Source: Tubulanus polymorphus (lineage: Eukaryota; Nemertea; Palaeonemertea; Tubulaniformes; Tubulanidae). Taken from it: a stretch of DNA of 64,000 nucleotides. This document shows, piece after piece, positions 1,464 through 59,323 of this stretch; positions within the stretch are counted from its first letter, which is position 1, and each line of letters starts with the position of its first letter. The position numbers and the translations under genes were made by a program. The DNA lies in assembly GCF_964204645.1 (NCBI RefSeq), contig NC_134030.1, positions 2,519,855 to 2,583,854 of the forward strand. The letters are read 5' to 3'. The notes under the pieces are model-generated. The model saw nothing but the letters and a program-made list of their open reading frames with translations. It searched no databases and had not been told where the DNA came from.

Positions 1464-1500
1464 GTGATGAAAGCAATTAAAACTCACCATTATTTCAACC

Positions 1501-1527
1501 TTGGAGTAATCAGGTGGATTACTCCAA
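1501..1527. repeat. Hairpin with TTGGAGTAATC arms
   Basis: Arms of 11 bases (TTGGAGTAATC and its reverse complement) are separated by AGGTG. The same arm sequence forms the outer part of the perfect 38-base palindrome at 60284..60321, so the two are probably relatives of one small foldback family. Confidence 0.75.
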
Positions 1528-4991: not shown

Positions 4992-5159
4992 CGCGATGTT
5001 TTCGTAAGCGGTATCATATCAGCTGTCAACTGGTAGTTTAACAGGCAGAGATCTTAATTTCGAGGAGATATCTCATCCATTCTAAAGTTTAAAAATAATC
5101 ATGTTGTCTTTAGTTTAACAAAATATGTTGATAATCTTAGCTTCGTTTTTTGCGTGAAA

Positions 5160-9200: not shown

Positions 9201-11526
9201 CTTCCATCTTCATCAACTCGAAATCGACGTCCTTCCTCTCGAAGTCAGCGACGGCCAGAACGGCGTCGACCGCTATTTCAGCCATATGACGATGACATCG
9301 GTTTATACTGTCAATATAACAACATCACATTTAATAATACCGTTTTATGACTAGTCGTAACTGCACCGCTAACAAGAGTGGCCACATTCCGCTCATCTAC
9401 AATTACCATTCAGTTTTCCCTGATTTTTCTGGGATCATTCATTTATTTTACGCATAAAATTTGAATTTTTCAACCCCCCTCCCCCTCTATACGCAAAATC
9501 GGCAAATTTTTCCTATAAACTAAGCACTTCAGTACGCAATTGCACTGACCCCTCCTCCCCTAATGCGTACGTAATAAATGAATGACCCCTCAAAAAATCT
9601 CAAGAAATTGCGTAGAGCTGACAGTGCCCGAGGAATCGCGTAGAGCGGACAGTGCCCGAGGAATCGCGTAGAGCGGACGGTGCCCGAGGAATCGCGTAGA
9701 GCGGACGGTGCCCGAGGAATCGCATAGCGACAGTGCCCGAGGAATCGCATAGAGCGGACAGTGCCCGAGGAATCGCGTAGAGCGAACAGTGCCCGAGGAA
9801 TCGCGTAGAGCGGACGGTGCCCGAGGAATCGCGTAGAGCGGACGGTGCCCGAGGAATCGCGTAGAGCGGACAGTGCCCGAGGAATCGCGTAGAGCGGACA
9901 GTGCCCGAGGAATTGCGTAGAGCGGACCCCGCCGGTGTTTTATGAATACTTACATTTTCGATCCGAGTGTTGTCATAGCAGTCTGTATGAGATTTTCTCT
10001 ATCAGCTTTATCCACGGTGAAGAAGTCACTGATTTTCTCGAGATGTTCAATAGCGACTTTAGCGGCCATTTCGAATCCGTCAGCGATACGTATAGGATGA
10101 ATTCCACGATCTAAAAGCTGTTCGGCCTGTTCTAGGAGTGCTCCGGCAAGAACTACAAACATAGATCATCGGGCATCAATTAGAACGATGGGTTTTAAAT
10201 CAAAACGATTAATGAATTAAATCTGAACTCTGAGTTGTTGAACGGTATTTCTGTAATTTTAGAACTGCAAATGAGACTCATAACTAAAAAACTTCAGAAT
10301 TGGGTAAGACTTCCATTTCTAACAGTAGAGATTGAGTCTAAGGTTGCAGTTAACAGTCAGATCTTTTTGCTGCGATTTCCAACAGGGTTCTTACACTAGA
10401 TTAGGAAATCTAAAATTCCCTTCTATTACTGCGGCCAAAATATCATCGTGGATTTTAAACCAAAATTCCCCGATTTCCCCCCCCCCCAAAAAAAAACCTC
10501 TTGGATTAAAAAGGCAGTAGAATAAGAAAAATATTTCAATGAGTTATCTTTGAGTTGATCTGAGTTTACTACGAAACATAAGGTCTCTGATGAGTTTAAA
10601 ACAACACCTGTAGTCTGCTGCTGGGAATTTAAAATCCAAAATTCAATTTCAGGAATCCGGGAGTTTCAGCACCGTACCTACGACTCCAGTAGTTCCGTCT
10701 CCTATCTCATCGTCCTGTGATTTCGATAGTTGTACCATTAATTTAGCGATCTGATGTTCGACGTCCATCATTCCGAGTATTGTTGCGCCGTCGTTGGTAA
10801 CGGTCACTTCTCCGTCCGGAGATATCATCATCTTATCCAAACCTTTCGGACCGAGAGACGAACGTAGGATGTTAGCGACGGTTTTCGCGGCTAAGATGTG
10901 TGACTGAAAATAAAATATTCCAACAGTTAGATTTTTAAACTTTGAAAGTTTTGGTCGAAATTAAGTGTAATACCCCCTTTCTGAGGCTAGGCCCCTATGT
11001 GGCCCGCGGCCCTAATTAGCGTTACTTAAGTAAGAATAGGGCTAATAGGTTAGGGTCTAACTGCAGTTTGGGTCACCTATCCACTGGGTGGCGCTAGTAT
11101 TATTAAAGAATAGTGTTATGGTAAGGTTAGGTAAATAGCCATTAGGGACACCTAAACTGCAGTCATACCCAACAGTGCATGTGGAATAGTTTGATTGAAA
11201 AGTTCAAAAACGCGACCCCCATATCTTCCTCCTTCCTTGCTGCTTGTCAACAAGAACACCTCTAGATCATCGCCGTCATTTGCATATATTTCCAATAAAT
11301 CCTGCCCCGGCTACATAACAAATTTTTCAAACTCTCTGAACTAAAATGGTATTAAGTTTTCAGAGAAATAGCTTTCAGGCCAGGTATTTGACGAACAGCG
11401 GTAACAAATATAAACAAATCAAACCTTATGCGCGTCGATTCCAGTAAGACGAGTTTTACGATCCTGATCACGCATAATAATGAACGGTCGTCCATACTCG
11501 TCGAAGGCTAGGGCTCCTTGCGACAT
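6245..11526 (-). CDS. CCT5: T-complex protein 1 subunit epsilon (CCT5), complete, nine exons
   Basis: This is one of eight subunits of the cytosolic chaperonin TRiC/CCT, which folds actin, tubulin and other proteins in an ATP-driven cage. Exons from 5' to 3' are 11425..11526, 10678..10903, 9954..10152, 8965..9307, 8455..8574, 8122..8307, 7779..7916, 6985..7165 and 6245..6360. They sum to 1611 bases (536 residues; the human protein has about 541), with phases matching throughout. The N-terminus [15 protein letters not shown] is epsilon-specific. Equatorial nucleotide-binding motifs are seen: LGPKG at 51-55, NDGAT at 71-75 and GDGTT at 102-106, and GGGAAE in exon 7. The apical-domain stretch [17 protein letters not shown] is nearly identical to vertebrate CCT5. 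The protein ends [13 protein letters not shown], shorter than the vertebrate tail. Intron 3 holds a 28-base minisatellite and other introns hold MITE-like elements. Confidence 0.97.
6555..6960. repeat. Dispersed repeat (copy 1 of 2), split by a MITE, in a CCT5 intron
   Basis: The segments CATCCGCCCTTCTGAAA..GGATGTCAATATTCT..GAGGATTACACC and CAGCAGCCATGATGTCATACAC..GCAGCATAC recur in order at about 54375..54625. Here they are interrupted by the inverted-repeat element at 6716..6886, which shows that the MITE inserted later. Confidence 0.65.
6716..6886. mobile_element. MITE family A, copy 1 (TIR GGGGTCATTCATTTATTACG)
   Basis: About 171 bases with inverted ends of about 27 bases (GGGGTCATTCATTTATTACG.. 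and ..ATAATAAATGAATGATCCC), a G-rich interior, no coding capacity, and a TAA on both sides that may be the target duplication. Relatives lie at 9431..9590 (opposite orientation) and 24753..24909. Confidence 0.8.
7188..7484. mobile_element. MITE family B, copy 1 (TTAA-CCCTTTCAGTGC ends)
   Basis: An approximately 290-base element in a CCT5 intron with ends CCCTTTCAGTGC and GCACTGAAAGGG preceded by TTAA, and subterminal palindromes of the type ACACCGC..GCGGTGT. It is closely related to the copy at 42657..42952. TTAA plus CCC ends are the pattern of piggyBac-type non-autonomous elements; the right flank here is decayed (GGGTAAAA). Confidence 0.75.
7545..7680. repeat. Dispersed repeat family G, copy 1
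   Basis: Sequence of the type TTTCCCCTGAC..ATCTGCTAAGAATTAAATC..TAATGCAGT..GACATAGATGG also occurs at about 43395..43525 and, more diverged, at 29757..29895. No ends or coding capacity were recognised. Confidence 0.55.
8850..8932. repeat. Direct repeat in a CCT5 intron
   Basis: ATCTATTTTACCTATCTATC followed by TAACTCAG occurs twice about 55 bases apart, just downstream of exon 4. Confidence 0.75.
9431..9590. mobile_element. MITE family A, copy 2
   Basis: Inverted orientation relative to copy 1: it begins GGGATCATTCATTTATTTTACGC and ends GCGTACGTAATAAATGAATG ACCCC, with a C-rich interior (CCCCCCTCCCCC). Inside CCT5 intron 3, just before the minisatellite. Confidence 0.8.
9603..9928. repeat. 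28-base minisatellite in CCT5 intron 3
   Basis: About eleven head-to-tail copies of a 28-base unit (GAATCGCGTAGAGCGGAC then AGTGCCCGAG, with A/G variation in GGACAGTG versus GGACGGTG). It is more GC-rich than its surroundings and ends about 25 bases before the CCT5 exon 3 donor. Confidence 0.9.
11060..11170. repeat. Possible foldback element with ACTGCAGTTTGGGT ends
   Basis: TAACTGCAGTTTGGGTCACC near 11070 and AGGGACACCTAAACTGCAGT near 11150 are imperfect inverted repeats around about 70 bases, in CCT5 intron 1. Confidence 0.5.
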
Positions 11527-25800: not shown

Positions 25801-26726
25801 TTAATCAAGTATAGGATATCCACTTTTCCCACACCACGATCTGACAAGATGGCCTCCGATTCGACCCTCTATAACTTAATTTCATGAGGCTATTTGAAGA
25901 GTGAGGTTAGGTTCAACAAACACCTCCTCGTACTGAGACAATGCATCCAGCAGATATGGGGAGGGAGACAAGTTTTTCATACTATGGCGTGCTCAAGTCT
26001 GCAGCAAAGGTAAAGGGTCGATAAGCCTCAGTTGTTAATTGTTTGTGATCATTTGTGTCTCAATTCAGTGATGTTTTTTGTTTGTTTTATAATAGTGTTT
26101 TTTGGTGACTATATGCTTCAGAATGAGGAGAGAATCCCACAATGATAATAAAAAGTCCGAAAATGAAACTTCGAGATAGTAGTTTATTTCAACGTTTCGA
26201 CTATATCCTAATAGTCATCTTCAGGAATAATTATCAGGAATCATTATTCCTGAAGATGACTATTAGGATATAGTCGAAACGTTGAAATAAACTACTATCT
26301 CGAAGTTTCATTTTCGGACTTTTTATTATCATTGTGGGACTCTCTCCTCATCGCGTCAACACGGATATAGTGTTCTACCTATCGTGATTATGCTTCAGAA
26401 GTTTTATAGTTCTATTGGAAGCAAGTAAAATGATTGTAGAGTAAAGACAACCGAAATGAGTCAAGTTATTGATAGTTTGTGTTGTATTTTGATGTGATGG
26501 TTGATCAGAGAGAAGTTAGATCGATGTTTGTGCAAGTTTTTCATTCACCACAAATCAAGAAAGTGCCATTCGAATCGATTTTACACCATACACCCGAACG
26601 TACTAGCGTTAGAGACCGATCACGAAAACACTCACCTTCGGAAGCAATAGATCAGTAAAATGATCAGAACAATGAGGAACAATAAGCCGAATATAACTCC
26701 GAGACATATAGCAGTCGTACGCATTT
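19869..26726 (-). CDS. Mucin-like gene exons 42-44: transmembrane helix and cytoplasmic tail
   Basis: Exon 42 (26636..26726) encodes the single membrane helix CLGVIFGLLFLIVLIILLIY followed by CFRR, the stop-transfer arginines. After an approximately 6 kb intron come exon 43 (20532..20673) and exon 44 (19869..20024, ending in TAA). The tail of about 100 residues is hydrophilic, Asn-rich, and contains NPTF and NPTY close together (DNPTFQNPTYGSS) and a C-terminal YINEYF. NPxY motifs are bound by PTB-domain and clathrin adaptors, so endocytosis or signalling through the tail is plausible. Phases 2, 0 and stop are consistent. This establishes a type I orientation with the EGF/NIDO part outside the cell. 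Confidence 0.85.
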
Positions 26727-36037: not shown

Positions 36038-39000
36038 CTTTATTCATCTAAGCATAATAAGTTACATCTAATTAATTTAAACATAATAATGGCAATCAAT
36101 GCATAGAGAGGACTTCGACAAGCCTAGTGTCTATTTATTAATTGATGAGACCTGTTTTTCTGGGATATTTTGCTTACTTTTTGGGGTACATACCTCATTT
36201 ATGTCTTAACAGAATGCCAAAAATCGCGGACAACAACTGAATATCCGATATTTTTCCAGTTCTGTACCAATTAGATGGATTGGCAAAAAGACTCCTTAAG
36301 TCAAGTTGAATGAGAGAGAAAATCCTCCATTTTGTCAAATTTCTTGAATTTTTACATTGTCACCATGCCTACGAAATGAAGTTATTTTTCTTGTGGGGTC
36401 TCAACAACTAAAGCAGGGTGGCGTAGGCATGGTAACAATGTAAAAATTCAAGAAATTTGACAAAATGGAGGATTTTCTCTCTCATTCAACTGGACTTAAG
36501 GAGTCTTTTTGCCAATCCATCTTATCGGTACAGAACTGGAATAATATCGGATATTCAGGTGTTGTCCGCGATTTTTGGCATTCTGTTAAGACATAAATGA
36601 GGTATGTACCCCAAAAAGTAAGCAAAATATCCCAGAAAAACAGGTCTCATCAATTAATAAATAGACATTAGTAGTTGTACCCAAAACATCAGTTTCAATA
36701 TTTTTCGCTATCAATCTTCAATATTGCGAGTCTTTTTCATATACACTACAGAGACTTTTCTAAACTGATTGTATAATGTTACCTGATTCGCTGTATTCAT
36801 CAACGCATTATTTTGAGCGAAAAGAGTCGACGTGTTGGTCGTATCGTAAGTGTCAGAATACAGGGGAACGTAAGTTGCGTCTTTATAATTTGCGCTCGTC
36901 TGCCCTTGTGGATAGTTAAATAATGATTCAGCCTGGGTGATAGCCCCTAAAATATGAACAAGGCAGTAGTAAATTACACAATTTTTGCCTTAATCATGAA
37001 AGCATTATATCTATCAATTCTACGAGATATCTCACAGTTGCAATGATGGCTCAACTGAGTTAACTCATAGCGCCGATGATGGAAGAACTTGAACCGGCAG
37101 CAAATATGTCAAAGAATTCCCCAAGAACACAACATAAATTGACTTACATGGTTTTACTAGATTTGTGTAGATATTCTGCTCTGAATCCGTATTTGGTAAT
37201 GCATTACCAGTAGGTGGCTGTAATGTACTGCTCAAAAGTCCTTTGACAGAAGCAACAACAGATGCAGGAACCGTTACTTCACATTTCATCACTTTCAGCG
37301 CGCTATCAAGAGTAATCTGTGAATATGATGTAATTGATGTAATGAGGTATCAATGGCACATACCAGATACTATGACAATGCAGTTAGTTAAACATAGTCA
37401 AAATAAGTTTGAACTGTGCTTATAGAATCCCTAATCCAAATATTATCAAACATAATCAAACATTCATTCAATAGATATAAGATTGACTTTCTACTCAGGG
37501 TTTGGTAGTTTTTGCTGAAAATTGATTTACCTTAAAATTGATTGAAACTGAACTGAAACCTGGCAGATCCTCCGATGCCACTGTAGCAGTGCTTCAGCAG
37601 TTTATTCATCATCAAATTTAACAAGAAATCTGCACTTATTGTAAGTCATTATAATGATCATATGCATTTACCTGAACTGTAAATTTGTTTTTAAAAACAA
37701 CTAGTAAAGTGTTTGCTGTTGGTTTTGAGATGATATAGTCAGTTTTGACGATACCGACAGGCGTTAAACGGGCGCTACTCCATGGAATATTCTCGATTGT
37801 TCCATTTGCGTATTTTAAATTCAAAACTAATTCAACTCCATTTTTTAGAAGAACCTGGAACAAAAACAATATGGCAGGCTGTACACAAAACATGTAAAAA
37901 TCCTTTATCAAATGCTTATCAATCAAAATGACCTAGCCACTGAAAATGGTGAATCTGGGAACTAGACAGTATTTAACCCAATAACAGGGACCACAAAGCC
38001 CATACAGATCAGGGAGTTCAAATTCCCTATAATCCCTCAACTTTCCCTGAATTCCATGGTCCACAGGATCCATAGAATAGATGTACATACCTCAATAGTT
38101 TCAGTAGCAGTCGGTTCTACTGTCTGAAATGAAAATGCGGTAAAGATGGTCGCTTGTGGTTTAAAATTAGTCGCAGCCGGAGCCGGTGCTGTACGTCCTT
38201 GCAGTTTGATGGTGTTGAGATTTATAAGCCAGTATTCACCGTACCCATTCATAGTAAACAATGTTCCTCCTAAATTAACTATGTGTGGATCACCAAACAT
38301 TATAGCTAAAATATCAAACACAATCAATAGTAAATAATCATATATAAAACTAAACGTTTGAGATCGTTTGAGACAGCAGATTGTCTGAGATGGTGCAGGG
38401 TACAGACAGCAGATTGTCTGAGAGGGTGCGGGGTACAGACAGCAGATTGTCTGAGAGGGTGCAGGGTACAGACAGCAGATTGTCTGACAGGGTGTAGGGT
38501 CCAGACAGCAGATTGTCTGACAGGGTGTAGGGTACAGACAGCAGATTGTCTGACAGGGTGCAGGGTACAGACAGCAGATTGTCTGACAGGGTGCAGGGTA
38601 CAGACAGCAGATTGTCTGACAGGGTGCAGGGTACAGACAGCAGATTGTCTGAGAGGGTGCAGGGTACAGACAGCAGATTGTCTGAGAGGGTGCAGGGTAC
38701 AGACAGCAGATTGTCTGAGAGGGTGCTGGATACAGACAGCAGATTGCCTGAGAGGGTGCAGGGTACAGACAGCAGATTGTCTGAGAGGGTGCAGGGTACA
38801 GACAGCAGATTGTCTGAGAGGGTGTAGGGTACAGACAGCAGATTGTCTGACAGGGTGCTGGATACAGACAGCAGATTGTCTGAGAGGGTGCTGGGTACAG
38901 ACAGCAGATTGTCTGAGAGGGTGTAGGGTACAGACAGCAGATTGTCTGAGAGGGTGTAGGGTACAGACAGCAGATTGTCTGACAGGGTGTAGGGTACAGA

Positions 39001-41475
39001 CAGCAGATTGTCTGACAGGGTGCTGGATACAGACAGCAGATTGTCTGACAGGGTGCAGGGTACAGACAGCAGATTGTCTGAGAGGGTGCTGGGTACAGAC
39101 AGCAGATTGTCTGAGAGGGTGTAGGGTACAGACAGCAGATTGTCTGAGAGGGTGTAGGGTACAGACAGCAGATTGTCTGACAGGGTGTAGGGTACAGACA
39201 GCAGATTGTCTGACAGGGTGCTGGATACAGACAGCAGATTGTCTGACAGGGTGCAGGGTACAGACAGCAGATTGTCTGACAGGGTGCAGGGTACAGACAG
39301 CAGATTGCCTGAGAGGGTGTAGGGTACAGACAGCAGATTGTCTGACAGGGTGCAGGGTACAGACAGCAGATTGTCTGACAGGGTGCAGGGTACAGACAGC
39401 AGATTGTCTGAGAGGGTGCTGGATACAGACAGCAGATTGTCTGACAGGGTGCAGGGTACAGACAGCAGATTGCCTGAGAGGGTGCAGGGTAAAGACATCG
39501 AATGTTGTCAGTTTATTTGTGTTATTTACCTTTTTTAGGAGATGTATAACCTGTAGATGTTGGCATTGGGCGATATTTGAAATAAAGTTTTTGAATATTT
39601 GCAGCGTAACAGTCAGAATACGCTTTCCCATCAGTAGTTGTATTAATAACCGCCGATAGTGTAAAAAGCATCTGACTTGTCGCATCAAAATTACTGGTAC
39701 CAACTGGATAGTTTTGAAGTTCTCTATCTGAAATGTGAGCGATCATAACTTGGTAAAATTTCAAATAAGAATTTCTGGGAAAAACATCTATAAGTCTATC
39801 GAAACCAGAGATGAAAATTTTTGGAAATACTGAGTGAGTGAGACGTTTAGTAACACCTTTCATATCGAAGCTGAATTTCTCAGACTAAAATAGCAAATAA
39901 CAGGGAACATCATGGAGTAGTTGGTAAATGAATACAGTACTCACCAGTAGAGTAACAACATCTAACGTAGATCGGAGTGTTTTTATTAGTGCCGCCATCA
40001 ACATAATTGAGAGGTTCCGTGAATGCCGATTTAAAACACGACGTCTCGGCTTGGTATACCATGAAATTTGGATCGCGTTGGGCCTGTGCCAGAGTTTTTG
40101 GGCAACTGGTAGGACCCGCCGTTATTTGAATCGTCGGTTTACGGCCCGTTTTCTCCCATATTTTGCAAAGTCGATAATGATTGGGTGAGGCAGACGTCGG
40201 ACCGATATCATATACATAAATACCATTCATATCTACAAAAGTAATTGTTTTGATAATCATTAAAAGTTTCAAATGTTACAACTCGTAGAGGAGTCGTGTT
40301 AACCTGGCTTCAAATCAGTAAATGTGATGGCTTGTAGTATAAGAACTGATTCTATTAGAAATTAAGAGCTTTCTCTACACTCAATAGCTTCATCAGGTAA
40401 ATGAGTAAACAGGTGGTCACTCTGTTAACTGACTTTATTAGAAACCACAAGCTTTCGGTATTAGTGAATATATAGAGTATCTTCATCAGGCAAATACGTA
40501 AATAGGTAATACAAATCTTTGGTAATTACTATTAAAATTGACAAAATTAAATATCAAAACTATTAACGCTTTTATGGTTATTCGAGCACCTGTAATCAAT
40601 AAAATACTTACTGATATTACTGGATTGAGTCATATTCAGTTTATTAACGACTGTGGATTCAATGATTGTTGGATTTACTCCTCCGCTGTTATATCCGATC
40701 TGTATTTGACGCCAGTGAGCGTCCGCGTTCCAGGCTTTATTGGGAACATCTTGATACAAAAAAACGATGAAAGTTCGTTCTCCGTCGGACGTGACTACAA
40801 CTTGAAAACTTGTTTGCTGAAACAATCAAAATATAAAATACTTCTCAATAACTAAGATTGAATGCACCTTGCAAATCAAATACAATGGCTATGATCATAC
40901 ATTGAAACATGATTAAACCACAATTGCATGATCGGATTCAGAATAAAATCAAACTAGCAATAGGGCTCAGTGTCGCGAACAAAATGAACTCAAATTCAAG
41001 GTTTAGTTGCTATTGACTCCCAATGATGGTCTTTGTTTGAAACGTTGTGTCTTGATTTTCGATGTAATCTTTATAATTTGTATATACTGAGTTTTAGTTA
41101 TATCATCTATTCTCTCGTCCGACCGCACAGCTATTCTATTATCAGCTGCTGTTTGTTACTTTGTGCTTTCAATGAGGACAACAATTAGAACTTAACCATT
41201 TTTCACAGAACTACATCATGTCCTTGAATTAACTATTGAGTATTATAGATTCTAATATCAATATTACCAGAGTTAATTTGAAATATTATTTACCTCTTTG
41301 GTCTTGTAATATTTTGATGGATTCGGGCAAATGTTTTCATACGTAACAACTATTGCTTGTTTTGGAACGAACACATTGTTAGCTCCATTTGGATTTTCTG
41401 AAACAGTCACTCACAGTAATAATAATAATAATAATAATTATAATAATAATGATAATAATAATAATAATAATAATG

Positions 41476-44500: not shown

Positions 44501-47500
44501 AGACACATCTTAAAGAATATTGCTGTATCAATAAGTCTCGGGTACTAATCCACTGATTGTGTCATTTTAGCCGCGATAACACGAGCATTTTTGGCCCGGG
44601 CCAAATATTAGCACCAGACAAATGATTGCGTTTGAATTGCAACTGGTACCGGAAATGATCCACTTCGCTTTGTTTGAGCATTGTTTAGTATCGAGTGAAT
44701 GGTTTGCGTGTGAACGCGCTCTCTAATTAGGCACGGGCCAAATTTGGCCTGAGCCTGATCGGTGCCAATTTGGCCCGGGCCAAATCGTCTCCTTGTGATC
44801 GCGGCTTTTATTTCAGTATCTATTTTGATGTTTTGTTTTACCTGTTGTACAGTCGACGCCTTTCCAACCAGCAGCGCAAGTACATTTATATGAACCAAGA
44901 AGGTTTTTACAAGTTCCGCTATTTTGACAAGGATTCGTCGGTGTGCATTCGTCAATGTCTGCGTTAAGAGAAGCATTCATTTAATAAAGATTCCACTAGA
45001 TATAAATGAACTCATAGTTTAGAGATAAGGTTAAATGTGGGCTCAGGGTCCAGTGGATACCCGATACCTGAGGCGGATTAAGCAGGTGATGTCGAGGGTT
45101 CGAACCCCTGCCTTTCCATTTAAGTTGCCCTTTTTTTTACAAAGATCATCAAAGCCTGCAAATTTGACAATGATCCTCCCGGAATTTGTATCTTATAGGA
45201 TGCATATCTTCAAAAATATCTTAACACCAAGGGAGGGACCCCACTAGTAGCTAGTAGCCTTTGACATGGCTGCTATATCCGAGAAATGCCTACATCTGCC
45301 CTTGGATATAGAGTGACAATCAAAACCGTATCGTAATCATGATATATATTCAACAGTCGAAGAAATAACTCGCCAAGATAACAAAGACATCGTTAAAAAT
45401 GTTTTGAAAATTCTCTCACCTTGATCGCAATTTTTTCCTTTCCATCCTGAATTACACTGACATGTATAAGCACCACTAGCGGTACCCGCTGTACAATTTC
45501 CATTTTTACAAGGTTTTTGTGATATGCAGCGATCTTCTGCAAAAACAAAGCAAATACACGGTTATTCATCAGCGAGCAAATAATCCTGAAGCCGTAACCA
45601 TACAAAATACTAAAAAAAAATTCATTTTTCCGAAGATTCCTGAACTCAATTTATCTTTCATACCATAATAATCGTATGAATGAGAAGCATCGTGCAAATT
45701 ATCATGCACCGATTTATAAGATTTACGTAAGCTTTTCGTGCCTGAAGAACTCGATAAAACAGCTCATCGTGTATCCCGCCCGCGCTTGAGCAGCCTCACA
45801 ACTAGGGAAGTAGTTTTTGATTTATCAGAACCACAAAACCATGTGAAACTAATAACGTGCATATAGTACAATGCCGGTACCTGTCTTACAAGTTGGACCT
45901 GAAAACCCTGTTTCACAAATGCATTCGTAATGCACTGAACCCAGTGGTTTGCAGGCTCCGTTTAAGCAAGGACGATTCCTTTCGCACATATTTAAAATCC
46001 TTCCTAAAATTATTGAAGGATAGCTTTTTTAAAAAACGTTGACCGAAACGCGAGACAATTGTATCTTGTTTTCAACTGGGATAACATGTTCATCCTTATT
46101 CATTCATAACGAGGCAACAAAAATGCAGATATGCTTAATGCTGGTTTGTTTGACTTTATGAAATGTTTCAGACAATCCTACGAATTTATTACCTGTATTA
46201 CAATTGGCACCAGAGAATCCAGTTTCACAGTTACATGTAGCTGCAGGTGATGCTCCAGCTGCTGCTTTCGTACATACACCATTATTTTTGCAGTACGGGA
46301 TTTTGTTGTCACAAGGATGAATTTCGCAAATCGGCCCGGAGAAACTGTTCACACATGCGCACGTATTAGAAGCAGAAGCACATGTTCCACTGTTCATACA
46401 CGGCACATTAATACCGGCGCCACACGTTACTGAAATCAGAATAATCATTTGTACGTATCATTTACTCATGTCAGTTGTTTAGTGACAACTAGAAAGAGTC
46501 AATATTTACCGACATCGCAGTTAGCACCAGATAAACCTGGTTTACAGGTGCATTTAGCCAGTGTATTATTGGTTGGGTCTGTTATACATGAAGCAGTTCT
46601 TACATTGAATTTACAACTTCCAGATTGATTGCATGGATCTGAAGAAAAATACAAGAAGATTGTAAACTAATCAATCAAAATCATAGAGACCATGATGACC
46701 AAAGGGCACTTTCAGAATACCTCTCATCATAACATTTCAAAGAAACTTTAGCTGAACAAAGCTGCAATCAGATTTGGCATGTGCTTAATTAGAGCGTGCA
46801 TTCAGACGTAAATCACTCACTCACTAAAGGGGGGAAAGCTATCAATACAATGCTGCTGTGGCAAGTGAGGTGAGTCACTTCCACAACAAATTAGCATTCA
46901 CACGTAATTATCTGACACGGACCAAAAAAACTTGCGCAATCGCGGCTTATGTTTTACTAACCGGATACGGAGCAATCAGTACCAGTGTAACCAGTAACTG
47001 CAGTATTACAGATGCACTTTTTGTTTGCAGCATCACAAGTTCCCGGATTACACGGTGCATTATCTACTCCACATGTTACTAAAAGATTGAAATATCATTA
47101 TTTATTAAGTAAAAATACATGTATGTTTGAGACTAATTCTTTTATAAGTTTTGTACTGAGTTCATATTTACCGACATCGCAGTTAGCACCAGATAAACCT
47201 GGTTTACAGGTGCATTTTGCAACTGTATTATCGGTTGGGTCTGTAACACATGTAGTAGTTCCGACTTGGAATTTACAACTTCCAGATTTGTTGCATGGAT
47301 CTGAAAAAGAATACAACAGTAATTTTGTTGATTACCTCGTGGACTAGGAGTGTGTTACTATGATAGTTGTAGGGCCATCTTTATGGATGGCCATTCCCAC
47401 CAAAAATCAGCTTTTCGTGTATTTGCCTGTACATTAATAAAATATCATAGTCTAAACTCAAATTGTGTAAATGCAACACTAAATCGTACTCTCGACTAAT

Positions 47501-50500
47501 TGACACAAGAGGGCGATACTGTATGTACGGATGATATATTTGTCATATTTTTCCCGATATATAACATATCAGGCACTTTCAGAATACCTCTCATCATAAC
47601 ATTTCAAAGAAACTTTAGCTGAACAAAGCTGCAATCAGATTTGGCATGTGCTTAATTAGAGCGTGCATTCAGACGTAAATCACTCACTCACTAAAGGGGG
47701 GGAAAGCTATCAATACAATGCTGCTGTGGCAAGTGAGGTGAGTCACTTCCACAACAAATTAGCATTCACACGTAATTATCTGACGCGGACCAAAAAAACT
47801 TGCGCAATCGCGGCTTATGTTTTACTAACCGGATACGGAGCAATCAGTACCAGTGTAACCAGTAACTGCAGTATTACAGATGCACTTTTTGTTTGCAGCA
47901 TCACAAGTTCCCGGATTACACGGTGCATTATCTACTCCACATGTTACTAAAAGATTGAAATATCATTATTTATTAAGTAAAAATACATGTATGTTTGAGA
48001 CTAATTCTTTTATAAGTTTTGTACTGAGTTCATATTTACCGACATCGCAGTTAGCACCAGATAAACCTGATTTACAGGTGCATTTTGCCAGTGTATTATC
48101 ATTTGGGTCTGTAACACATGTAGTAGTTCCGACTTGGAATTTACAACTTCCAGATTTGTTGCATGGATCTGAAAAAGAATACAACAGTAATTTTGTTGAT
48201 TACCTCGTGGACTAGGAGTGTGTTACTATGATAGTTGTAGGGCCATCTTTATGGATGGCCATTCCCACCAAAAATCAGCTTTTCGTGTATTTGCCTGTAC
48301 ATTAATAAAATATCATAGTCTAAACTCAAATTGTGTAAATGCAACACTAAATCGTACTCTCGACTAATTGACACTAGAGGGCGATACTGTATGTACGGAT
48401 GATATATTAGTCATATTTTTCCCGATATATAACATATCAGGTAATATCCCGTATATTTTCATTAGACATAATACTTAAATATTTTGAATGTAGACCGTGA
48501 CATTTTAAGTTTAGACAAATAGACGAGAATGGCTGCCCATACATGTTAGCAAGGGGAATCGTTATAAGGGTAAGTGTAAGTAATAGGGCTGTAATTGGTT
48601 TTACTAACCCGCTGTGGAGCAATCGACACCAGAGAATCCAGTTTTACAGTCACATGTAGCTGCAGGTGATGCTCCGGCTGCTGCTTTCGTACATACACCA
48701 TTATTTTTGCAGTACGGGATAATGTTGTCGCAAGGATGAATTTCGCAAATCGTTCCGGTGAAACTGTTCACACATGTGCATTTACCGGTATTAGAATCAC
48801 ATGTTCCGCCATTTTTACATGGAGCACTACCGGTGCCACATGTTACTGAAATCAGAATAATCATTCGATAATTAACAATGGGGGAAATCCGGACTGACGA
48901 CCGCAACAAATGAGCAACGACAAGATTTCACTTAGTTACCATAGATACGGGTGGGGCGTGAGTTGCTTCAGATCGGAGATACACCTGCGTATAGTTTGAA
49001 TCTCATCTCTAACATGCAGGGTATTCATACTTAATAATCATAACGTGTAGGGTACTCATACAAGGTACAAGGTACTCATACTTAATAATCAAGCGTGTAT
49101 GGTACTCGTACAAGGTACAGGGTACTCATACTTAATAATCAAACATGTTGTTTGGTACTCATACAAGGTACAGGGTACTCAATTCTCAGTGCTTTTACCC
49201 AACCTGGGTATTTGTATTCAATTATGAAACAGGGCAACCATTGATAAAACATTGCATCCATGTTGTGTGAGAGATCCCCGCAATAAAGATGTTTCGACTA
49301 TATCCTGAGAGTTTGAAGATGACTATTGGAATATAGTCGAGAATCGAAAAATACTAGCTCAAGGAATACAGGGTCCAGTTTCACAGTTAACTAATTTAAA
49401 ATGATCTTACTTTAACTCTAGAGTTAACTAAAGCTCACAACTGTGGAACTGGGTGCTGTATCCCTGAAGATGACTATCAGAATATAGTCGAAACATCAAA
49501 ACTACTGGCCCAAAGGAAATAGCTTCAGACTTTATTTCTTCGTAATCATCGTGGGATATTCTATATAAAACAGGGCATTCATCGATTTCTCATCCTTTTT
49601 GTCTTGGGAGTCAGCGTTACGATGCAGCGTACCCATACGCAGCACTACGATGCAACATACCGTACTCCTCTCCTCACATTCAAACAGCGAAGTGATCAAT
49701 GATTTTGGTTTTAATGTCAAACACAGCAATGAAGAGATACAGCAATTTAAATGTCTAGTTGTCACAAACTGAAGACCAGACTACGTGATACCTCTAATTG
49801 TAGTAGTTTCCACCTAAACATTCCAGTAATTTCACATCATCAAAAATGATAGTTGAATTGAAAATGAACTAGAAATTATTCTGAATTTTAGTAGAAGTTT
49901 TTTGGAGTAGTTGCGAGTTCCTTAAAAAAAGAGAAAAAACTACTTTCAAATAGCTGTTGTAGTCGGGTCTGCAAACATTCACTCACACATCTTTAATTGA
50001 CAGAAAAAATATGAGCTTGAATGAAGAAAGCAATGACGATGAAAAGAAGATAAAACCCACTATGAAAAAATTAGAAGAATTGTGAAATCATGAATTTATT
50101 TTCAAAAATCTAAATGACACAACAGAGATCATCCTAGAGATCATCATCGGGTGATCTCTAGGGTGAGATCGATTGATAAAATAAATTCTGGATTTTAAAA
50201 TTCTTCTAATTTATACATAGTGGGTTTTGATCCCATTATCTGTTCACCACGTGTGAGTGTACATGTTATTCTACTACAATGATGAAGAAGTTTTGATATT
50301 AGTACGATGACCATGAACAAGATCCCCCCCCCCCCCCCAGTATTAAGTATTATCCCATGTAGATATTCTCTAATCATATTTCACTTAATTTGAACCTTCT
50401 CAACAAAATTGTTTCATTCACTCAAGCTAGAGACACTCTACGAACGTCAGAAATTCACCGCAAACTTTTCAGTAATCCCCCCATGCTTAATCTGAATGTC

Positions 50501-53500
50501 AATCTATTACCATTCTGTAATCCACATCTAATAACTATATGAAAAAAATATATTGATGCAGAAAATTAGGCAGTGTACTATTAATAATCGAATACATAAT
50601 ATGTCGATCTCCTTTTTAACCCTTTCATTACATGTACCCTGCCATGAGGTGTACAGTCCATCCACCCTACAGTATGCCTACTCTACAATGTGGTGTAGTC
50701 CATCCACCCTACAGTATGCCTACCCTGCCATGTGGTGTACAGTCCACCCAACCTACAGTATGCCTACTCTACAATGTGGTGTACAGTCCACCCACCCTAC
50801 AGTATGCCTACTCTACAATGTGGTGTACAGTCCACCCACCCTACAGTATGCCTACTCTACAATGTGGTGTACAGTCCACCCAACCTACAGTATGCCTACT
50901 CTACAATGTGGTGTAGTCCACCCAACCTACAGTATGCCTACTGTACAATGTGGTGTACAGTCCACCCAACCTACAATATGCCTACTCTACAATGTGGTGT
51001 AGTCCATCCAACCTACAGTATGCCTACTCTACAATGTGGTGTAGTCCATCCAACCTACAGTATGCCTACCCTGCCATGTGGTGTACAGTCCACCCAACCT
51101 ACAGTATGCCTACCCTGCCATGTGGTGTACAGTCCACCCAACCTACAGTATGCCTACTCTACAATGTGGTGTAGTCCACCCAACCTACAGTATGGCTACC
51201 CTGCCATGTGGTGTACAGTCAACCCAACCTACAGTATGCCTACCCTGCCATGTGGTGTACAGTCAACCCAACCTACAGTATGCCTACTCTACAATGTGGT
51301 GTAGTCCATCCAACCTACAGTATGCCTACTCTACAATGTGGTGTAGTCCATCCAACCTACAGTATGCCTACCCTGCCATGTGGTGTACAGTCAACCCAAC
51401 CTACAGTATGCCTACCCTGCCATGTGGTGTACAGTCCACCCAACCTACAGTATGCCTACCCTACAATGTGGTGTAGTCCATCCACCCTACAGTATGCCTA
51501 CTCCACAATGTGGTGTAGTCCATCCACCCAACAGTATGCCTACCCTACAATGTGGTGTAGTCCATCCACCCTACAGTATGCCTACCCTACAATGTGGTGT
51601 AGTCCATCCACCCTACAGTATGCCTACTCTACAATGTGGTGTAGTCCACCCAACCTACAGTATGCCTACTCTACAATGTGGTGTAGTCCACCCAACCTAC
51701 AGTATGCCTACTCTACAATGTGGTGTAGTCCACCCAACCTACAGTATGCCTACTCTACAATGTGGTGTAGTCCACCCAACCTACAGTATGCCTACCCTGC
51801 CATGTTGCGTACAGTCCATCCAACCTACAGTATGCCTACCCTGCCATGTGGTGTACCGTCCATCTAACCTACAGTATGCCTACCCTGCCATGTGGTGTAC
51901 CGTCCATCCAACCTACAGTATGCCTACTCCACAATGTGGTGTAGTCCATCCACCCTACAGTATGCCTACCCTGCCATGTGGTGTACAGTCCATCCAACCT
52001 ACAGTATGCCTACCCTGCCATGTGGTGTACCGTCCATCTAACCTACAGTATGCCTACCCTGCCATGTTGTGTACAGTCCATCCAACCTACAGTATGCCTA
52101 CCCTGCCATGTGGTATACCGTCCATCCAACCTACAGTATGCCTACCCTGCCATGTGGTGTACCGTCCATCCAACCTACAGTATGCCTACTCCACAATGAG
52201 GTGTAGTCCGTCCATCCTACAGTATGCCTACTCTACAATGTGGTGTAGTCCATCCACCCTACAGTATGCCTACTCTACAATGTGGTGTACAGTCAACCCA
52301 CCCAACAGTATGCCTACTCTACAATGTGGTGTAGTCCATCCAACCTACAGTATGCCTACTCTACAATGTGGTGCACAGTCAACCCACCCAACAGTATGCC
52401 TACTCCACAATGTGGTGTAGTCCATCCACCCTACAGTATGCCTACCCTGCCATGTGGTGTACAGTCCACCCAACCTACAGTATGCCTACCCTGCCATGTT
52501 GTGTACAGTCCATCCAACCTACAGTATGCCTACCCTGCCATGTGGTGTACCGTCCATCCAACCTACAGTATGCCTACCCTGCCATGTGGTGTACCGTCCA
52601 TCCTACAGTATGCCTACTCTACAATGTGGTGTAGTCCATCCACCCTACAGTATGCCTACTCTACAATGTGGTGTAGTCCATCCACCCTACAGTATGCCTA
52701 CTCTACGATGTGGTGTACAGTCAACCCACCCAACAGTATGCCTACTCTACAATGTGGTGTAGTCCATCCACCCTACAGTATGCCTACTCTACAATGTGGT
52801 GTAGTCCACCCAACCTACAGTATGCCTACCCTGCCATGTGGTGTACAGTCCAACCAACCTACAGTATGCCTACTCTACAATGTGGTGTAGTCCACCCACC
52901 CTACAGTATGCCTACCCTGCAGTGTGGTGTATTTATCAATTATTTAAATCTTCTATTGAAAGATACCAGAGCACGTATCAATATTGTAAAATATTCACAA
53001 ATAAGATACACCGCATAGAAGTGAGCATTCACATGGAATAATTTGACACAAGCAGAGACGAACCCATTTGGCATCAGTGCCCGGGGTCTGAGCCAGCACT
53101 AGCCAAATTTTGAGCGAGCAAAAATGCTTGAGGCTTTTTTCTCTTTAATTTGATAGTAAGTTCACTGCTGATATCAAATCAGCATTTCTCGCCTCCTAAG
53201 AAATACCCAATGAAAAATCAAAAGGGTTCAGTTTCATAAAAAGTTTGACCCTTAACCCGAAATTAATTTATTATCAAATCATAGCACTCCATTTGAACAA
53301 TCATAGAACACTCGATTTGAGTTCTATGATTAAATCTCTATCTTCATCTAAATCGTTTTAGGAATAAGACTTCTACATGAAACTGGTTACCTGTAAGGAT
53401 ATAAAGTACTTACTTGTGTCACAGTTCTTTCCAGCAAGTAAATCAGGAGTTCCACCTGCAGCTGCAAGACAATCACAGGTGTGATCATTACCTGCAACCG

Positions 53501-53741
53501 GGGTACACACTGCACCACTTTTACACGGATCAGGAGTACACCCAGCGGCCGATACTGTCACTGTACAAAACACGGGAAGTAATAGATAACATATACACAG
53601 CAGATTAAACAGTTTAATCCAACTAAAATCTTTAATCCGTGCGTCATAATCTCTCTTAATCCTATCGAAAGAATCTTCGTTAATCTGTCCGCAGTTATCG
53701 CTGCTGAAATATCGTTGCGATTTATCGAGATTGATTTCCAT
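19869..53741 (-). CDS. Mucin-like type I membrane protein (EGF-NIDO-AMOP-VWD-EGF-SEA-TM), 44 exons
   Basis: I joined 44 exons by splice signals, phase and domain continuity: 6804 bases, 2267 residues plus stop, with no frame break. Domain order by residue: N-terminal part with a hydrophobic signal or anchor segment and EGF (1-109), EGF repeats (110-631), NIDO (632-882), AMOP and linker (883-1044), VWD region (1045-1333), Cys-rich and beta segments (1334-1516), EGF repeats including DIDEC/DINEC calcium-binding types (1517-1878), SEA (1879-2003), EGF (2004-2138), transmembrane helix (about 2140-2167), cytoplasmic tail (2168-2267). This resembles MUC4-like and coral mucin-like proteins. A surface or matrix role is inferred. 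Almost all EGF exons are symmetric phase 1-1. The 5' end is uncertain: the frame stays open to a possible acceptor at 53828, so an upstream exon may exist. Domain blocks are listed separately. Confidence 0.85.
21743..21960. repeat. Degenerate tandem repeat, about three units
   Basis: The phrase GATATCACAGCCAATCA..CCCTAA..GTCACCTGACCA recurs at about 21745, 21838 and 21917 with substitutions. Confidence 0.65.
22998..23092. mobile_element. Short inverted-repeat element
   Basis: CAGGGCCCGGTTTTATAGAC and its near-inverse GTCTATAAAACCATGCCCTG flank a core with CCCGGGTTAGCCCCCGGG. The ends resemble those of family D (GGGC..GGTTTCATAGA). Confidence 0.65.
24065..24190. mobile_element. Inverted-repeat element family F (CCAGTTC ends)
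   Basis: Starts CCAGTTCCATAGTTCTACG and ends with the approximate inverse CGTCAGAACTGG; the inner arms TGTGACCC and GGGTCACA also pair. Relatives with CCAGTT(C/T)CACAGTT ends lie at 49374..49452 and 61565..61613. Confidence 0.55.
24753..24909. mobile_element. MITE family A, copy 3
   Basis: Begins AGGGTCATTCATTTATTATG and has ATGCGTACGTAATAACTGAG near the right end, with a G-rich interior as in copy 1; the right terminus is more decayed than in the other copies. Confidence 0.7.
26121..26379. mobile_element. Long foldback element, copy 1, with CTGANGA..GAAA core
   Basis: Two near-perfect inverted arms of about 105 bases meet around 26230. The right end carries an extra tail CGCGTCAACACGGATATAGT that is the left tail of the second copy at 59094..59323. 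The plus strand at 26250..26279 reads CTGAAGA, a 6-bp stem GACTAT/ATAGTC and GAAA; the minus strand of the left arm repeats it. No coding capacity. Confidence 0.85.
26930..27440. repeat. Tandem repeat of about 120 bases containing an exon remnant
   Basis: Three to four copies of a unit with GTCCAATCCCGGAACAGAG, GGCTAACTAGGGATAGTGTG and ATAGCTCTCAGAGTTTTATT. Between two units, at about 27094..27139, lies a diverged copy of exon 41 with its donor. Confidence 0.8.
27515..29058 (-). CDS. Mucin-like gene exons 38-41: membrane-proximal EGF modules
   Basis: Exons 28915..29058, 28228..28356, 27713..27788 and 27515..27570. Exon 38 (FNECTASHTFHNCLLSTKC) and exon 39 (DINECETTCKNIPLVNC) each encode one EGF-like module of 43-48 residues, phase 1-1. 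Exons 40 and 41 together encode a last EGF (CKPDTCEHEGVCEY then GYFCRCPHHYIGERCE), split by a phase 2 intron. It sits directly before the membrane helix, the same arrangement as in MUC4-type mucins, where SEA or VWD is followed by EGFs and the helix. Confidence 0.85.
27850..28195. repeat. Two tRNA-like SINE heads in opposite orientation
   Basis: On the minus strand at about 27860..27940, TCTAGTGTGGCAGGG and GGTTCGAATCCCTGCC resemble pol III A and B boxes. On the plus strand at 28105..28190, TCTAGTGTGGCAGGGG and ATCAGGTCGGATCCCTGCC are the same family. They flank about 150 bases and form an imperfect inverted pair in intron 39/40. Confidence 0.6.
29195..29320. repeat. Dispersed element carrying one unit of the 40-base minisatellite
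   Basis: Reverse-complement similarity to the borders of the array at 19020..19620: GACCAGAATAC, AGAATAGGATAATCTGTAAA, GATAGCGGC..CCGGTAGAGAG and CCAGAATTGCTATTTGTT match in order. Confidence 0.65.
29477..30712 (-). CDS. Mucin-like gene exons 35-37: SEA domain with RRKR motif
   Basis: Exons 30603..30712, 30299..30357 and 29477..29682 (phases 0, 2, 1). The start GQTYRVTIKLLRPYSAALQN, then EYAQAVKDV, and the later strand CTVLSF followed after a loop by a conserved-looking hydrophilic part fit the SEA fold found in mucins, agrin and enterokinase. SEA domains often self-cleave at a GS(V)VV strand; that motif is not seen here. Instead the segment SSSAGARRKRNTAG holds a basic RRKR that matches the furin-type consensus. 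Exon 37 continues with an Asn/Thr-rich stretch and two Cys. SEA assignment is by eye and moderately sure. Confidence 0.65.
29757..29895. repeat. Dispersed repeat family G, diverged copy
   Basis: TTCTTTTCCATGACTTGATC, AGGAATCCAATGAATTAACAC and AAATAGACGGAAACGGTTTG match the copies near 7560 and 43410. A 68-residue open frame crosses it with several Cys, but it is repeat-derived. Confidence 0.55.
29981..30108. mobile_element. MITE-like element with CCAGTTGCTCA ends
   Basis: GGACCAGTTGCTCATAAGTT and GGTAAGAGTTAACCAG at the left pair with CTGGTTATCTTTAACCAACT and TTTGAGCAACTGGCCCC at the right, so the arms are about 36 bases in a 128-base element. Confidence 0.75.
30789..34213 (-). CDS. Mucin-like gene exons 27-34: eight EGF-like modules
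   Basis: Exons 34046..34213, 33832..33969, 33162..33308, 32850..32969, 32578..32706, 31925..32053, 31409..31531 and 30789..30920, all phase 1-1. Modules begin DIDEC, DINEC, DINEC, DIDEC, an atypical AQAAAKC, DINEC, LINEC and DTNEC. The D-I/L-D/N-E-C start and the later aromatic (GTYKC, GSFTC, GSYNC, GTYQC) are the calcium-binding EGF pattern. Calcium-stiffened rods of this kind are usual in extracellular matrix and adhesion proteins. The fifth module lacks the DxxEC start and probably does not bind calcium. Confidence 0.9.
31111..31271. mobile_element. MITE family D, copy 1, with flanking partial copies
   Basis: Begins GGGCCTAGTTTCATAGACTG and ends CATCTATAAAACCGAGCCC; the core AACAACCACCATAGTAATAA and TTTCAAAATGTTCTCAGGGA is shared with 62875..63024 and, inverted, 41605..41765. 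Between 30957 and 31110 there are tandem fragments of the same end. Confidence 0.75.
31680..31860. repeat. Tandem repeat of about 55 bases (related to 61155..61310)
   Basis: AACCAAAATGAACCTACACA, ACACAAATGAACTTAGAC and AACCAAAATGAGCTTAGAC are successive diverged copies; the inverse sequence occurs near 61170..61300. Confidence 0.6.
32170..32400. repeat. Tandem repeat of about 65 bases
   Basis: About four copies of a unit with TTAATCAGTAATCAAG, GTAAGACCCTCAGTAA and ATTTCTGTTCAAAT in intron 31/32. Confidence 0.7.
34261..34480. repeat. Two-copy tandem repeat of about 117 bases
   Basis: CATATGTGTTCCGAACTTCA/CATTTCATGTGTTCAGAACTT and GATTGTAAATGAACTACTAA/AATTGTAAATGAACTACAAA mark two diverged copies in intron 26/27. 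Confidence 0.6.
34514..35569 (-). CDS. Mucin-like gene exons 25-26: beta-rich segment and Cys-rich module
   Basis: Exon 25 (35192..35569) encodes 126 residues with Cys pairs (VCNWDQLCTVT near the start, LCQCRKV near the end) and alternating hydrophobic strands, like the Ig/cadherin-type insert that follows VWD in MUC4-like proteins; I cannot name it. Exon 26 (34514..34684) encodes 57 residues with eight or more Cys (LCKCGAKLAGRDC, YCQTNPCYPGVTC, CGNCPKGMTGDG), an EGF-like or laminin-EGF-like piece. Both exons are phase 1-1. A SINE fills most of the intron between them and its tail reaches the exon 25 donor. Confidence 0.75.
34864..35187 (+). mobile_element. tRNA-headed SINE with (ATT)n tail
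   Basis: The head has an A-box-like GTGGCGTCGCTTTAAGGTTA and a B box GTGTTCGAACCCC. The body has the widely shared GTCCTTAGGCAAGGCATTAA motif, and the 3' end GGCGCTATACAAATTCGTG is followed by about 13 ATT units. The total of about 320 bases is normal for a SINE. It is antisense to the host gene. Confidence 0.85.
35739..38305 (-). CDS. Mucin-like gene exons 20-24: VWD-type domain
   Basis: Exons 38091..38305, 37672..37854, 37148..37316, 36783..36946 and 35739..35874 (phases 0, 0, 1, 0, 1). It opens with IMFGDPHIVNLGGTLFTMNG and GYGEYWLI, the canonical GDPH start of von Willebrand factor type D domains. It continues through ELVLNLKYANG and TLLVVFKNKFTVQ and the MUC4-type ending SLFNYPQGQTSANYKDATYV, then a Cys-containing helix-rich part (TCLDKNMPSKYYKKC). 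VWD domains mediate oligomer assembly and protein contacts in gel-forming and membrane mucins. Two large repeats, a 246-base-arm foldback and a 33-base minisatellite, sit in flanking introns. Confidence 0.88.
36001..36038. repeat. (AAT)n microsatellite
   Basis: About twelve TAA/AAT triplets in intron 23/24. Confidence 0.95.
36128..36667. repeat. Large inverted repeat: 246-base arms, 48-base spacer
   Basis: The left arm 36128..36373 and right arm 36422..36667 are near-perfect reverse complements (for example GGGATATTTTGCTTACTTTT pairs with AAAAGTAAGCAAAATATCCC); only a few mismatches were seen. It lies wholly within intron 23/24 of the mucin-like gene, so the pre-mRNA would form a long hairpin. 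No coding capacity was found in the spacer. Confidence 0.92.
38371..39489. repeat. 33-base minisatellite, about 34 copies, intron 19/20
   Basis: The unit is CAGACAGCAGATTGTCTG then AGAGGGTGCAGGGTA, with GACAGGG, TGTAGGG, TGCTGGA and GCCTG variants. Each unit contains the inverted repeat CAGACA..TGTCTG. As 33 is divisible by 3 and the unit lacks stops in several frames, open frames of 380-460 codons appear on both strands. These are not genes. Confidence 0.97.
39530..40232 (-). CDS. Mucin-like gene exons 18-19: AMOP domain
   Basis: Exon 18 (39945..40232, 96 residues) carries the AMOP signature: LCKIWEK, SCPKTLAQAQRDPNFMVY, ETSCF and RCCYS, matching the spacing C..CP.TL.QA..D..F....C...CCY of the family. 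AMOP is found between NIDO and VWD in MUC4 and related adhesion proteins. Exon 19 (39530..39727) encodes 66 linker residues with two or fewer Cys. Both exons are phase 1-1. Confidence 0.88.
40612..43874 (-). CDS. Mucin-like gene exons 13-17: NIDO domain
   Basis: Exons 43705..43874, 43019..43157, 41928..42062, 41294..41397 and 40612..40816 (phases 0, 1, 1, 0, 1). It begins DGLFYPAG, then SIIAPFWADM, a PGKLYYDVYDSDLL strand, PKQAIVVTYENI and SFQVVVTSDGERTFIVFLY followed by QIGYNSGG. These are the successive strands of the nidogen-like NIDO domain (LFPYG, IAPFWADVD, VTWENV, NTFQ..L..DG..T...F.Y, GYN.G). NIDO always occurs in extracellular adhesion or matrix proteins, commonly beside AMOP and VWD as here. 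Confidence 0.9.
41419..41506. repeat. (AAT)n microsatellite with GAT interruptions
   Basis: About 29 triplets, mostly AAT, in the intron before NIDO exon 16; it starts about 20 bases from the exon 16 acceptor side. Confidence 0.95.
41605..41765. mobile_element. MITE family D, copy 2
   Basis: GGGCTGGGTTTCATAGATGT at the left and CAGTCTATGAAACCAGGCCC at the right form the inverted ends; core TATCCCTAGGGATAACTTTG. Confidence 0.8.
42185..42400. repeat. Dispersed repeat, copy 2 (partner near 4285)
   Basis: Shares AATCTAGAACAGGCAAT, AAAGTGTTTTCATTAA and GGCATACATAGTCTAAAATTC with the stretch at 4285..4480. Confidence 0.6.
42657..42952. mobile_element. MITE family B, copy 2, exact TTAA flanks
   Basis: A 288-base element between TTAA (42657..42660) and TTAA (42949..42952), ends CCCTTTCAGTGC and GCACTGAAAGGA, in intron 14/15 of the mucin-like gene. 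Subterminal ACACCGCACTGCGGTGT palindromes are intact. TTAA target duplication points to piggyBac-type mobilisation. Confidence 0.82.
43395..43525. repeat. Dispersed repeat family G, copy 3
   Basis: TTTTCCCTGACTTGATCTGC, TAAGAATCGAATCAATTAAT and AAGACATAGATAGATG match the copy near 7550. Confidence 0.6.
44208..48845 (-). CDS. Mucin-like gene exons 2-12: N-terminal EGF repeat array
   Basis: Exons 48609..48845, 48040..48168, 47830..47946, 47172..47300, 46962..47078, 46510..46638, 46193..46429, 45881..46003, 45420..45536, 44842..44958 and 44208..44321, every one phase 1-1. Exons 2 and 8 each encode two EGF modules and are paralogues (both contain YCKNNGVCTKAAAGASPAAT). Exons 3, 5 and 7 form a second paralogous set (DPCN(K/Q)SGSCKF), and exons 4 and 6 a third (VTCGVDNAPCNPGTC). 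Exons 11 and 12 are DIDEC calcium-binding type. Exons 3+4 and 5+6 belong to a recent 868-base tandem duplication. EGF modules with CxCxxGxxGxxC endings dominate. Confidence 0.88.
44568..44807. mobile_element. MITE family C, copy 1 (TAGCCGCGATNACACGAGC ends)
   Basis: Starts TAGCCGCGATAACACGAGCA and ends CTTGTGATCGCGGCT, with paired GGCCCGGGCCAAAT segments inside. It is the reverse of the copy at 56301..56517 (shared core GAGTGAATGGTTTG and CGCTCTCTAATTAGGCAC). Confidence 0.8.
45035..45125. repeat. tRNA-like SINE head or fossil
   Basis: GAGGGTTCGAACCCCTGCC is an intact pol III B box, preceded by GGTCCAGTGGATACCCGATA as a possible A box. No full cloverleaf was convincing. Confidence 0.45.
46705..48440. 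repeat. 868-base tandem duplication containing two EGF exons
   Basis: 46705..47571 and 47572..48440 are about 99 percent identical by eye. Each holds one copy of the DPCNKSGSC exon and one of the VTCGVDNAPC exon with their introns. I count about nine differences, including one G-run length change; five of them lie within exon 3/5. Confidence 0.95.
49010..49190. repeat. Tandem repeat of about 50-55 bases
   Basis: GGTACTCATACAAGGTACAG and GGTACTCATACTTAATAATC alternate three times in intron 1. Confidence 0.75.
49374..49452. mobile_element. Inverted-repeat element family F, copy 2
   Basis: GTCCAGTTTCACAGTTAACT and CTCACAACTGTGGAACTGGG are the ends; the centre TTAACTCTAGAGTTAACT is itself palindromic. 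Confidence 0.65.
50325..50338. repeat. Homopolymer C run
   Basis: About 14 consecutive C in intron 1 of the mucin-like gene. Confidence 0.9.
50640..52931. repeat. Minisatellite of 42- and 44-base units, more than 50 copies, intron 1
   Basis: The unit is ATGTGGTGTAGTCCATCCAC then CCTACAGTATGCCTACTCTACA (42 bases), with a GTGTACAGTCC version two bases longer, CCTGCC versus CTACA, and CACCCAA versus CATCCAC variants. The two lengths interleave, so reading frames shift between units and a ladder of overlapping open frames with a Met-rich repeat appears. None is a gene. Confidence 0.97.
53414..53741 (-). CDS. Mucin-like gene exon 1 as seen: N-terminus and first EGF
   Basis: From the ATG at 53741 (MEINLDKSQRYF) the protein has about 43 polar residues, then a hydrophobic segment FNLLCICYLLLPVFCTVTVSA ending in small residues suited to signal peptidase, then an EGF start (CTPDPCKSGAVCTP). 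The donor follows TGTGACACAA. A signal peptide with so long an N-region is unusual; a signal anchor or a start in another exon are alternatives. The frame is open upstream to 53853 without an ATG, and a possible acceptor lies at 53828. A four-codon ORF (53807..53821, ATG to TAG) lies upstream in another frame. Confidence 0.65.
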
Positions 53742-54374
53742 GTTGTTGTTTTTTTCTTTATTCGTCTTTAACAGGAAGCGCTTAATGTCGATCACACGAT
53801 ACACGTCTAATTTCCGTCCATCAGAAACTGAAAATACACAACATACGCGAATCTATTAATCGTAATTAAACGAAGCGAATTCAAGCGAAATCAAGCGCTG
53901 AAACGCAATGCAAAGCGTTTTAACTAATACCAAAAAAATACCTATGACAGAAACAAGTTTGGTGTCGAGAGAATTCGACGATTTATTTCTTACATTAATT
54001 CACGGCATTTCAAAGACATAAATAATGACGGATGACTTTACCCTACTTTAACTTATTGTGTAATAAAAACAACGCGTAAAGGTGGCGAATTAGCCAATAA
54101 TAGTAGAAATATCGCACTAATAAACAAATACAACCTTGGTATCAGATGGCATTAATCTTTCCCATTGATCTGGACGAAGCAAACTCCATTAGGAAACTGG
54201 ACAGACAGCTATAGGCAAAAATTATCAAATTTGTGAAATGTTTGGTGAACTGACAAGTCCACGGGAAAAATGACGCGCACATGAGCCAAATTTGATGCCG
54301 CAGACTTTGCAGCTTGTTAGTATAGGGAGCCATATTGTCAAAAGATCCTCTACCAGCAGTGTTCTTCATAACAA

Positions 54375-56278: not shown

Positions 56279-56517
56279 GGTGTGATCGCGGCTTATACAT
56301 AAGCCGTGATCACACGGAGAAGATTTGGCCGGGCCAAATTGGCAGCGATCAGGCTCGGGACAAATTTGGCCCGTGCCTAATTAGAGAGCGCGTTCACACA
56401 CAAACCATTCACTCGATACTAAACAATGCTCAAAAACAAGGCTCGGGCCTATTTGGCACCCGTGTGAACAGTTGTTCCGGGCCACCAGGGGCAAAAATGC
56501 TCGTGTGATCGCGGCTA
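56279..56517. mobile_element. MITE family C, copy 2, with an abutting terminal palindrome
   Basis: The element 56301..56517 starts AAGCCGTGATCACACGG and ends CTCGTGTGATCGCGGCTA. Just before it, GTGTGATCGCGGCTTATACA forms with it a palindrome, as if the end of a second copy lies immediately next to it. Confidence 0.78.
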
Positions 56518-59093: not shown

Positions 59094-59323
59094 GGTAGAA
59101 CACTATATCCGTGTTGACGCGATGAGGAGAGAATCCCACAATGAAAATAAAAAGTCCGAAAATGAAACTTCGAGATAGTAGTTTATTTCAACGTTTCGAC
59201 TATATCCTAATAGTCATTATTCCTGAAGATGACTATTAGGATATAGTCGAAACGTTGAAATAAACTACTATCTCGAAGTTTCATTTTCGGACTTTTTATT
59301 ATCATTGTGGGATTCTCTCCTCA
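59094..59323. mobile_element. Long foldback element, copy 2, with CTGANGA..GAAA core
   Basis: The left end is GTAGAACACTATATCCGTGT then TGACGCGATGAGGAGAG; the arms are the same as in the copy at 26121..26379 but this copy keeps the left tail and lost the right one. The loop is shorter. CTGAAGA 59223..59229, stem GACTAT/ATAGTC, GAAA 59249..59252. Confidence 0.85.

Follow-up and report, generated by a model that had tools for sequence, protein, structure and literature searches.

PMC1553488 discusses how EGF domains expand by exon shuffling and places EGF among the families whose duplications most often involve a single domain. For repeats overall, its abstract describes steps of several domains as common, and the paper considers the exact duplicated segments hard to identify in most cases. 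The event described here resembles the phase 1-1 EGF exon duplications treated there in its phase 1 flanks, intronic breakpoints, kept frame and more than one round. It differs in being a two-domain step rather than a one-domain step, and is recent enough for its exact breakpoints to be read. Teneurin EGF arrays offer the best match to the joined EGF protein of the locus (teneurin EGF model PF25024, top Pfam match, 101.2 bits, cut-off 65; PF00008, 83.5 bits). This likeness concerns the EGF model alone and may represent general EGF likeness, since PF25024 is a stretch of EGF repeats. EGF fragments of Notch/Delta and factor VII were among the 20 solved sequences matched at ≤0.001 (best, Notch1, 1.1e-6), with a weak, general EGF similarity. 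MUC4-like (NIDO-AMOP-VWD) proteins, as in sea anemones (PMC9080433), have a possible counterpart in the window, by which we mean the whole 64,000-base stretch of DNA analysed. A NIDO match lies farther along on the same strand (28.4 bits on one open frame, above the cut-off of 25, but a sub-threshold 19.2 bits in a typed composite). The EGF array precedes the NIDO frame, and a gene shared by the two is a candidate only. No Pfam match to AMOP or VWD was obtained with the open frames or the typed pieces, in which the exons are incomplete, and the likeness to these domains is by eye only.

Copy A of the duplicated unit directly adjoins copy B (Table 1). The two copies aligned with 98.97% identity over 870 columns, with 8 mismatches and 1 gap, and chance is ruled out as the source of such an 867-base near-identical neighbour. 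The left edge of copy A reads ccaaag/GGCACTTT, the join between the copies catatca/GG/CACTTT, and the right edge of copy B catatcaGG/TAATAT. The copies are offset by 867 bases up to the G-run and by 868 bases beyond it. An earlier reading of this DNA from its sequence only had given an 868-base unit with about nine differences; nine were confirmed, and the length applies to copy B, copy A having 867 bases. Both outer edges of the unit are intronic, so the breakpoints lie in introns, and splice borders are intact in both copies. On the minus strand, each copy holds two phase 1-1 EGF exons, of 129 and 117 bases, and the duplication therefore keeps the frame. Copies, edges and frame all agree with the earlier proposal that a pair of phase 1-1 EGF exons was duplicated in tandem and in frame very recently.

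Table 1. Positions in the window of the duplicated unit, the EGF exons named in the text and the differences between the two copies.
Feature	Position	Strand	Remark
Copy A, duplicated unit	46705-47571	minus	867 bases
Copy B, duplicated unit	47572-48439	minus	868 bases; one extra G at 47696
Microhomology GG at join	47572-47573	none	2 bases; same GG after copy B, 48440-48441
Exon E1_237	48609-48845	minus	older relative of C237, 86% over 249 bases
Exon B129 (EGF)	48040-48168	minus	in copy B
Exon B117 (EGF)	47830-47946	minus	in copy B
Exon A129 (EGF)	47172-47300	minus	in copy A
Exon A117 (EGF)	46962-47078	minus	in copy A; identical to B117
Exon C129	46510-46638	minus	older relative of A129/B129, 88-89% over 159 bases
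Exon C237, two EGF domains	46193-46429	minus	downstream of C129
Extra G in copy B	47696		G-run length change
Substitution outside 129-base exon	46917 A / 47785 G		copy A / copy B
Substitution outside 129-base exon	47507 A / 48375 T		copy A / copy B
Substitution outside 129-base exon	47541 T / 48409 A		copy A / copy B
Five differences in 129-base exon	47202/48070, 47221/48089, 47223/48091, 47233/48101, 47234/48102	minus	copy A / copy B
33-base stretch holding the five exon differences	47202-47234	minus	in A129; 48070-48102 in copy B

Overall, the minus-strand gene model comprises 11 EGF exons between 48845 and 44208, in the order E1_237, B129, B117, A129, A117, C129, C237 and four further exons. 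Joined, they give a stop-free frame of 521 residues. Together with NIDO, such EGF exons separated by introns point to an animal source, and COX1 had no match in the assembly. In each of the 11 exons, the length is a multiple of three, the borders are AG/GT and both sides are in phase 1; this agreement is a consistency check and partly circular, because phase 1 and a length divisible by three were already required of the candidates in the search. A frame at 53373–53852, with an EGF match of 18.5 bits (below the 21.5 cut-off), may be an earlier exon. Older rounds of like growth are apparent from the resemblance of C129 to A129/B129 and of C237 to E1_237 (Table 1), and the best reading of these sequences is that the gene probably grew by exon-cassette duplication earlier too. 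A 44-base minisatellite of about 53 copies (50644–52931) is perhaps located in an intron of the EGF gene.

The differences between the copies were 8 substitutions and one change of G-run length. The 738 bases outside the 129-base exon hold three of the substitutions and the G-run change, in agreement with the earlier count of about four, and the 117-base exon (exon 4/6 of the sequence-only reading) is identical between copies, as had been reported. The remaining five differences lie in the 129-base exon and span 33 bases rather than the 36 first given. They represent two within-codon double changes and one single change, and the three altered codons are those named before (B/A: AAT/ACC, Asn/Thr; CTG/GTT, Leu/Val; TCA/CCA, Ser/Pro). 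Going by the EGF cysteine pattern, two of the changed residues presumably fall in the interval from cysteine 3 to cysteine 4 and the third in that from cysteine 5 to cysteine 6. The pathway-averaged count for this exon was 2 synonymous and 3 nonsynonymous changes. The earlier statement that no synonymous-only codon change was seen is correct to the letter, although 2 of the 5 base changes are scored as synonymous. Fragments of a dispersed repeat family were noted at 46766–46927, 44684–44746 and 56361–56423, with many genomic matches of about 72–87% identity. Use of a dispersed repeat to polarise the intron differences was dropped, the compared genomic copies being only about 74–79% alike.

The clustering of 5 of the 8 substitutions within 33 bases had p 0.0005 when each substitution was counted separately, p 0.006 when the adjacent pair was taken as one mutation, and p 0.07 when both within-codon pairs were merged, leaving three events. 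The description of the differences as focused in one exon consequently stands as a raw count and loses significance once three events are counted. For the number of substitutions in the 129-base exon, the same three ways of counting (unmerged, adjacent pair merged, both pairs merged) gave p 0.003, 0.012 and 0.046, and for the number in either exon p 0.046, 0.106 and 0.226. All clustering and exon-count tests were post hoc, made after the data had been seen. According to PMC9500374, within-codon double substitutions in primates and yeasts are largely due to mutational bias, and the two double changes observed here are possibly multinucleotide mutations. The evidence for a special process behind the exon cluster is weak to moderate.

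We consider it highly probable that the locus contains a real, recent intragenic tandem duplication of an exon cassette, with differences that are ordinary ones acquired since or allelic. An 867-base segment with both ends in introns would have been copied beside itself, probably by joining at a 2-base microhomology; the sharing of two bases (GG) there points to non-homologous joining or to template switching during replication. As the two exons are phase 1-1, a protein produced from the locus would be extended in frame by two EGF domains. The nine differences would be mutations since the event or, with copies derived from two haplotypes, allelic differences that existed beforehand. Of the 2,902 possible positions for an 867-base segment on the exon map inferred for the state before the duplication, 26.6% carried exactly two whole exons, so special guidance is unneeded; the other placements carried one whole exon (9.9%) or three (6.5%), or cut an exon (57%). 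The three breakpoint stretches folded as single-stranded DNA showed nothing unusual (z −0.73, 0.98 and 0.68).

The control set comprised 20 pieces of 10 kb and the 64-kb window, in which adjacent pairs with an offset of 300–5000 were counted. A pair at ≥97% was present in 1 of 21, the window only, at 90% in 3 of 21 and at 80% in 5 of 21; these values give a rough rate only, because the window had been picked for holding the duplication and the pieces were placed by hand. By a looser count, 7 of the 20 pieces had some direct pair of at least 150 bases at ≥80%, including one non-adjacent 454-base pair of 98.5% identity, 6,075 bases apart. Near-identical adjacent copies were absent from the 20 control pieces, which makes the event an uncommon one on a scale of 200 kb.

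The window contains other repeats and open frames. A 33-base minisatellite of about 34 copies (38371–39497) has a unit that is a multiple of three, and a putative coding frame of 491 residues on the minus strand is open through it into a stretch that looks VWD-like by eye. A 548-base near-palindrome at 36124–36671 is 92% self-complementary, and smaller ones lie at 26123–26351 and 59123–59323. By eye, a 365-residue open frame at 1962–3059 has the look of a seven-helix receptor, and open frames at 8107–10960 on the minus strand that of a chaperonin TCP-1 subunit.

A related history, which we regard as rather unlikely, is that the cassette is a copy-number-variable module that still segregates in the species, copies A and B having been joined from two diverged haplotypes by unequal exchange. 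The exon differences would then be older allelic variation of the EGF domain, now side by side in one protein.

It is improbable that the duplication is an assembly artefact, with two haplotype versions of one region set end to end. Copies A and B differ by about 1%, and alleles in many marine animals differ to a similar extent, which would suit such a join. The whole 1,861-base query, however, had a single placement in the assembly (267.8 Mb, 77 contigs) in a search scoring the best candidates only, and the next best among the scored matches was exon C at 89%. In PMC9516828, false exon gains occur among the false duplications, and the marks given for these are half depth, gaps between copies, discordant linked reads and single-copy k-mers. 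Gaps, a main mark, were the one checked, and the 64,000-base window contains 0 N. An assembly join is unlikely because of the single genomic placement and the N-free window, and the caution raised earlier about an artefact or haplotype join is reduced to that extent.

We regard gene conversion with exon C, or a different EGF exon, as donor as a quite improbable source of the exon differences. Exon 5 (A129) does resemble exon 7 (C129) at some sites, as the sequence-only reading had noted: at the five exon-difference bases, A agrees with C at three and B at two. Moreover, A129 is identical to C129 over the final 46 exon bases and 8 intron bases (p 0.02 within the exon, 0.003 when 15-base flanks are added). 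However, C is matched by A at codons 22 and 33 and by B at codon 26, while codons 23 and 27 are shared by A and B and differ in C. No contiguous tract was found in which one copy matches donor C at every varying site. As a single tract, the conversion from exon 7 that had been suggested is not supported, because agreement alternates A, B, A, with sites where A and B together differ from C in between. The 29-base A and B versions have no other genomic site within 3 mismatches, and the exon-pair protein search gave six matches, five in the window and one elsewhere at 39% identity. Differences between C237 and E1_237 lie mostly in the first half and at the end, with a long, nearly identical middle. 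This patchiness may mark older conversion in the array; from the sequences, both it and the A129/C129 identity possibly reflect older conversion, or constraint.

Diversification of the new EGF domain by positive selection is very improbable: a residue is altered in all three changed codons and the 129-base exon carries 5 of the 8 substitutions, but the either-exon counts are weaker, at least 3 nonsynonymous changes of 5 have a probability of 0.92 from site numbers, and dN/dS is about 0.45 (0.031/0.069), not above 1, with little power from five differences, so that the selection option offered before gains no support from 2 synonymous vs 3 nonsynonymous changes.

The tandem duplication of the exon cassette leaves current understanding unchanged, and no sign of unusual selection was seen. 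It is a genuine, well-resolved and ordinary event that represents an ordinary mode of growth of such genes. Its exact breakpoints and intact frame, together with the older rounds that the gene has undergone, provide a clean snapshot of the growth of an EGF array.
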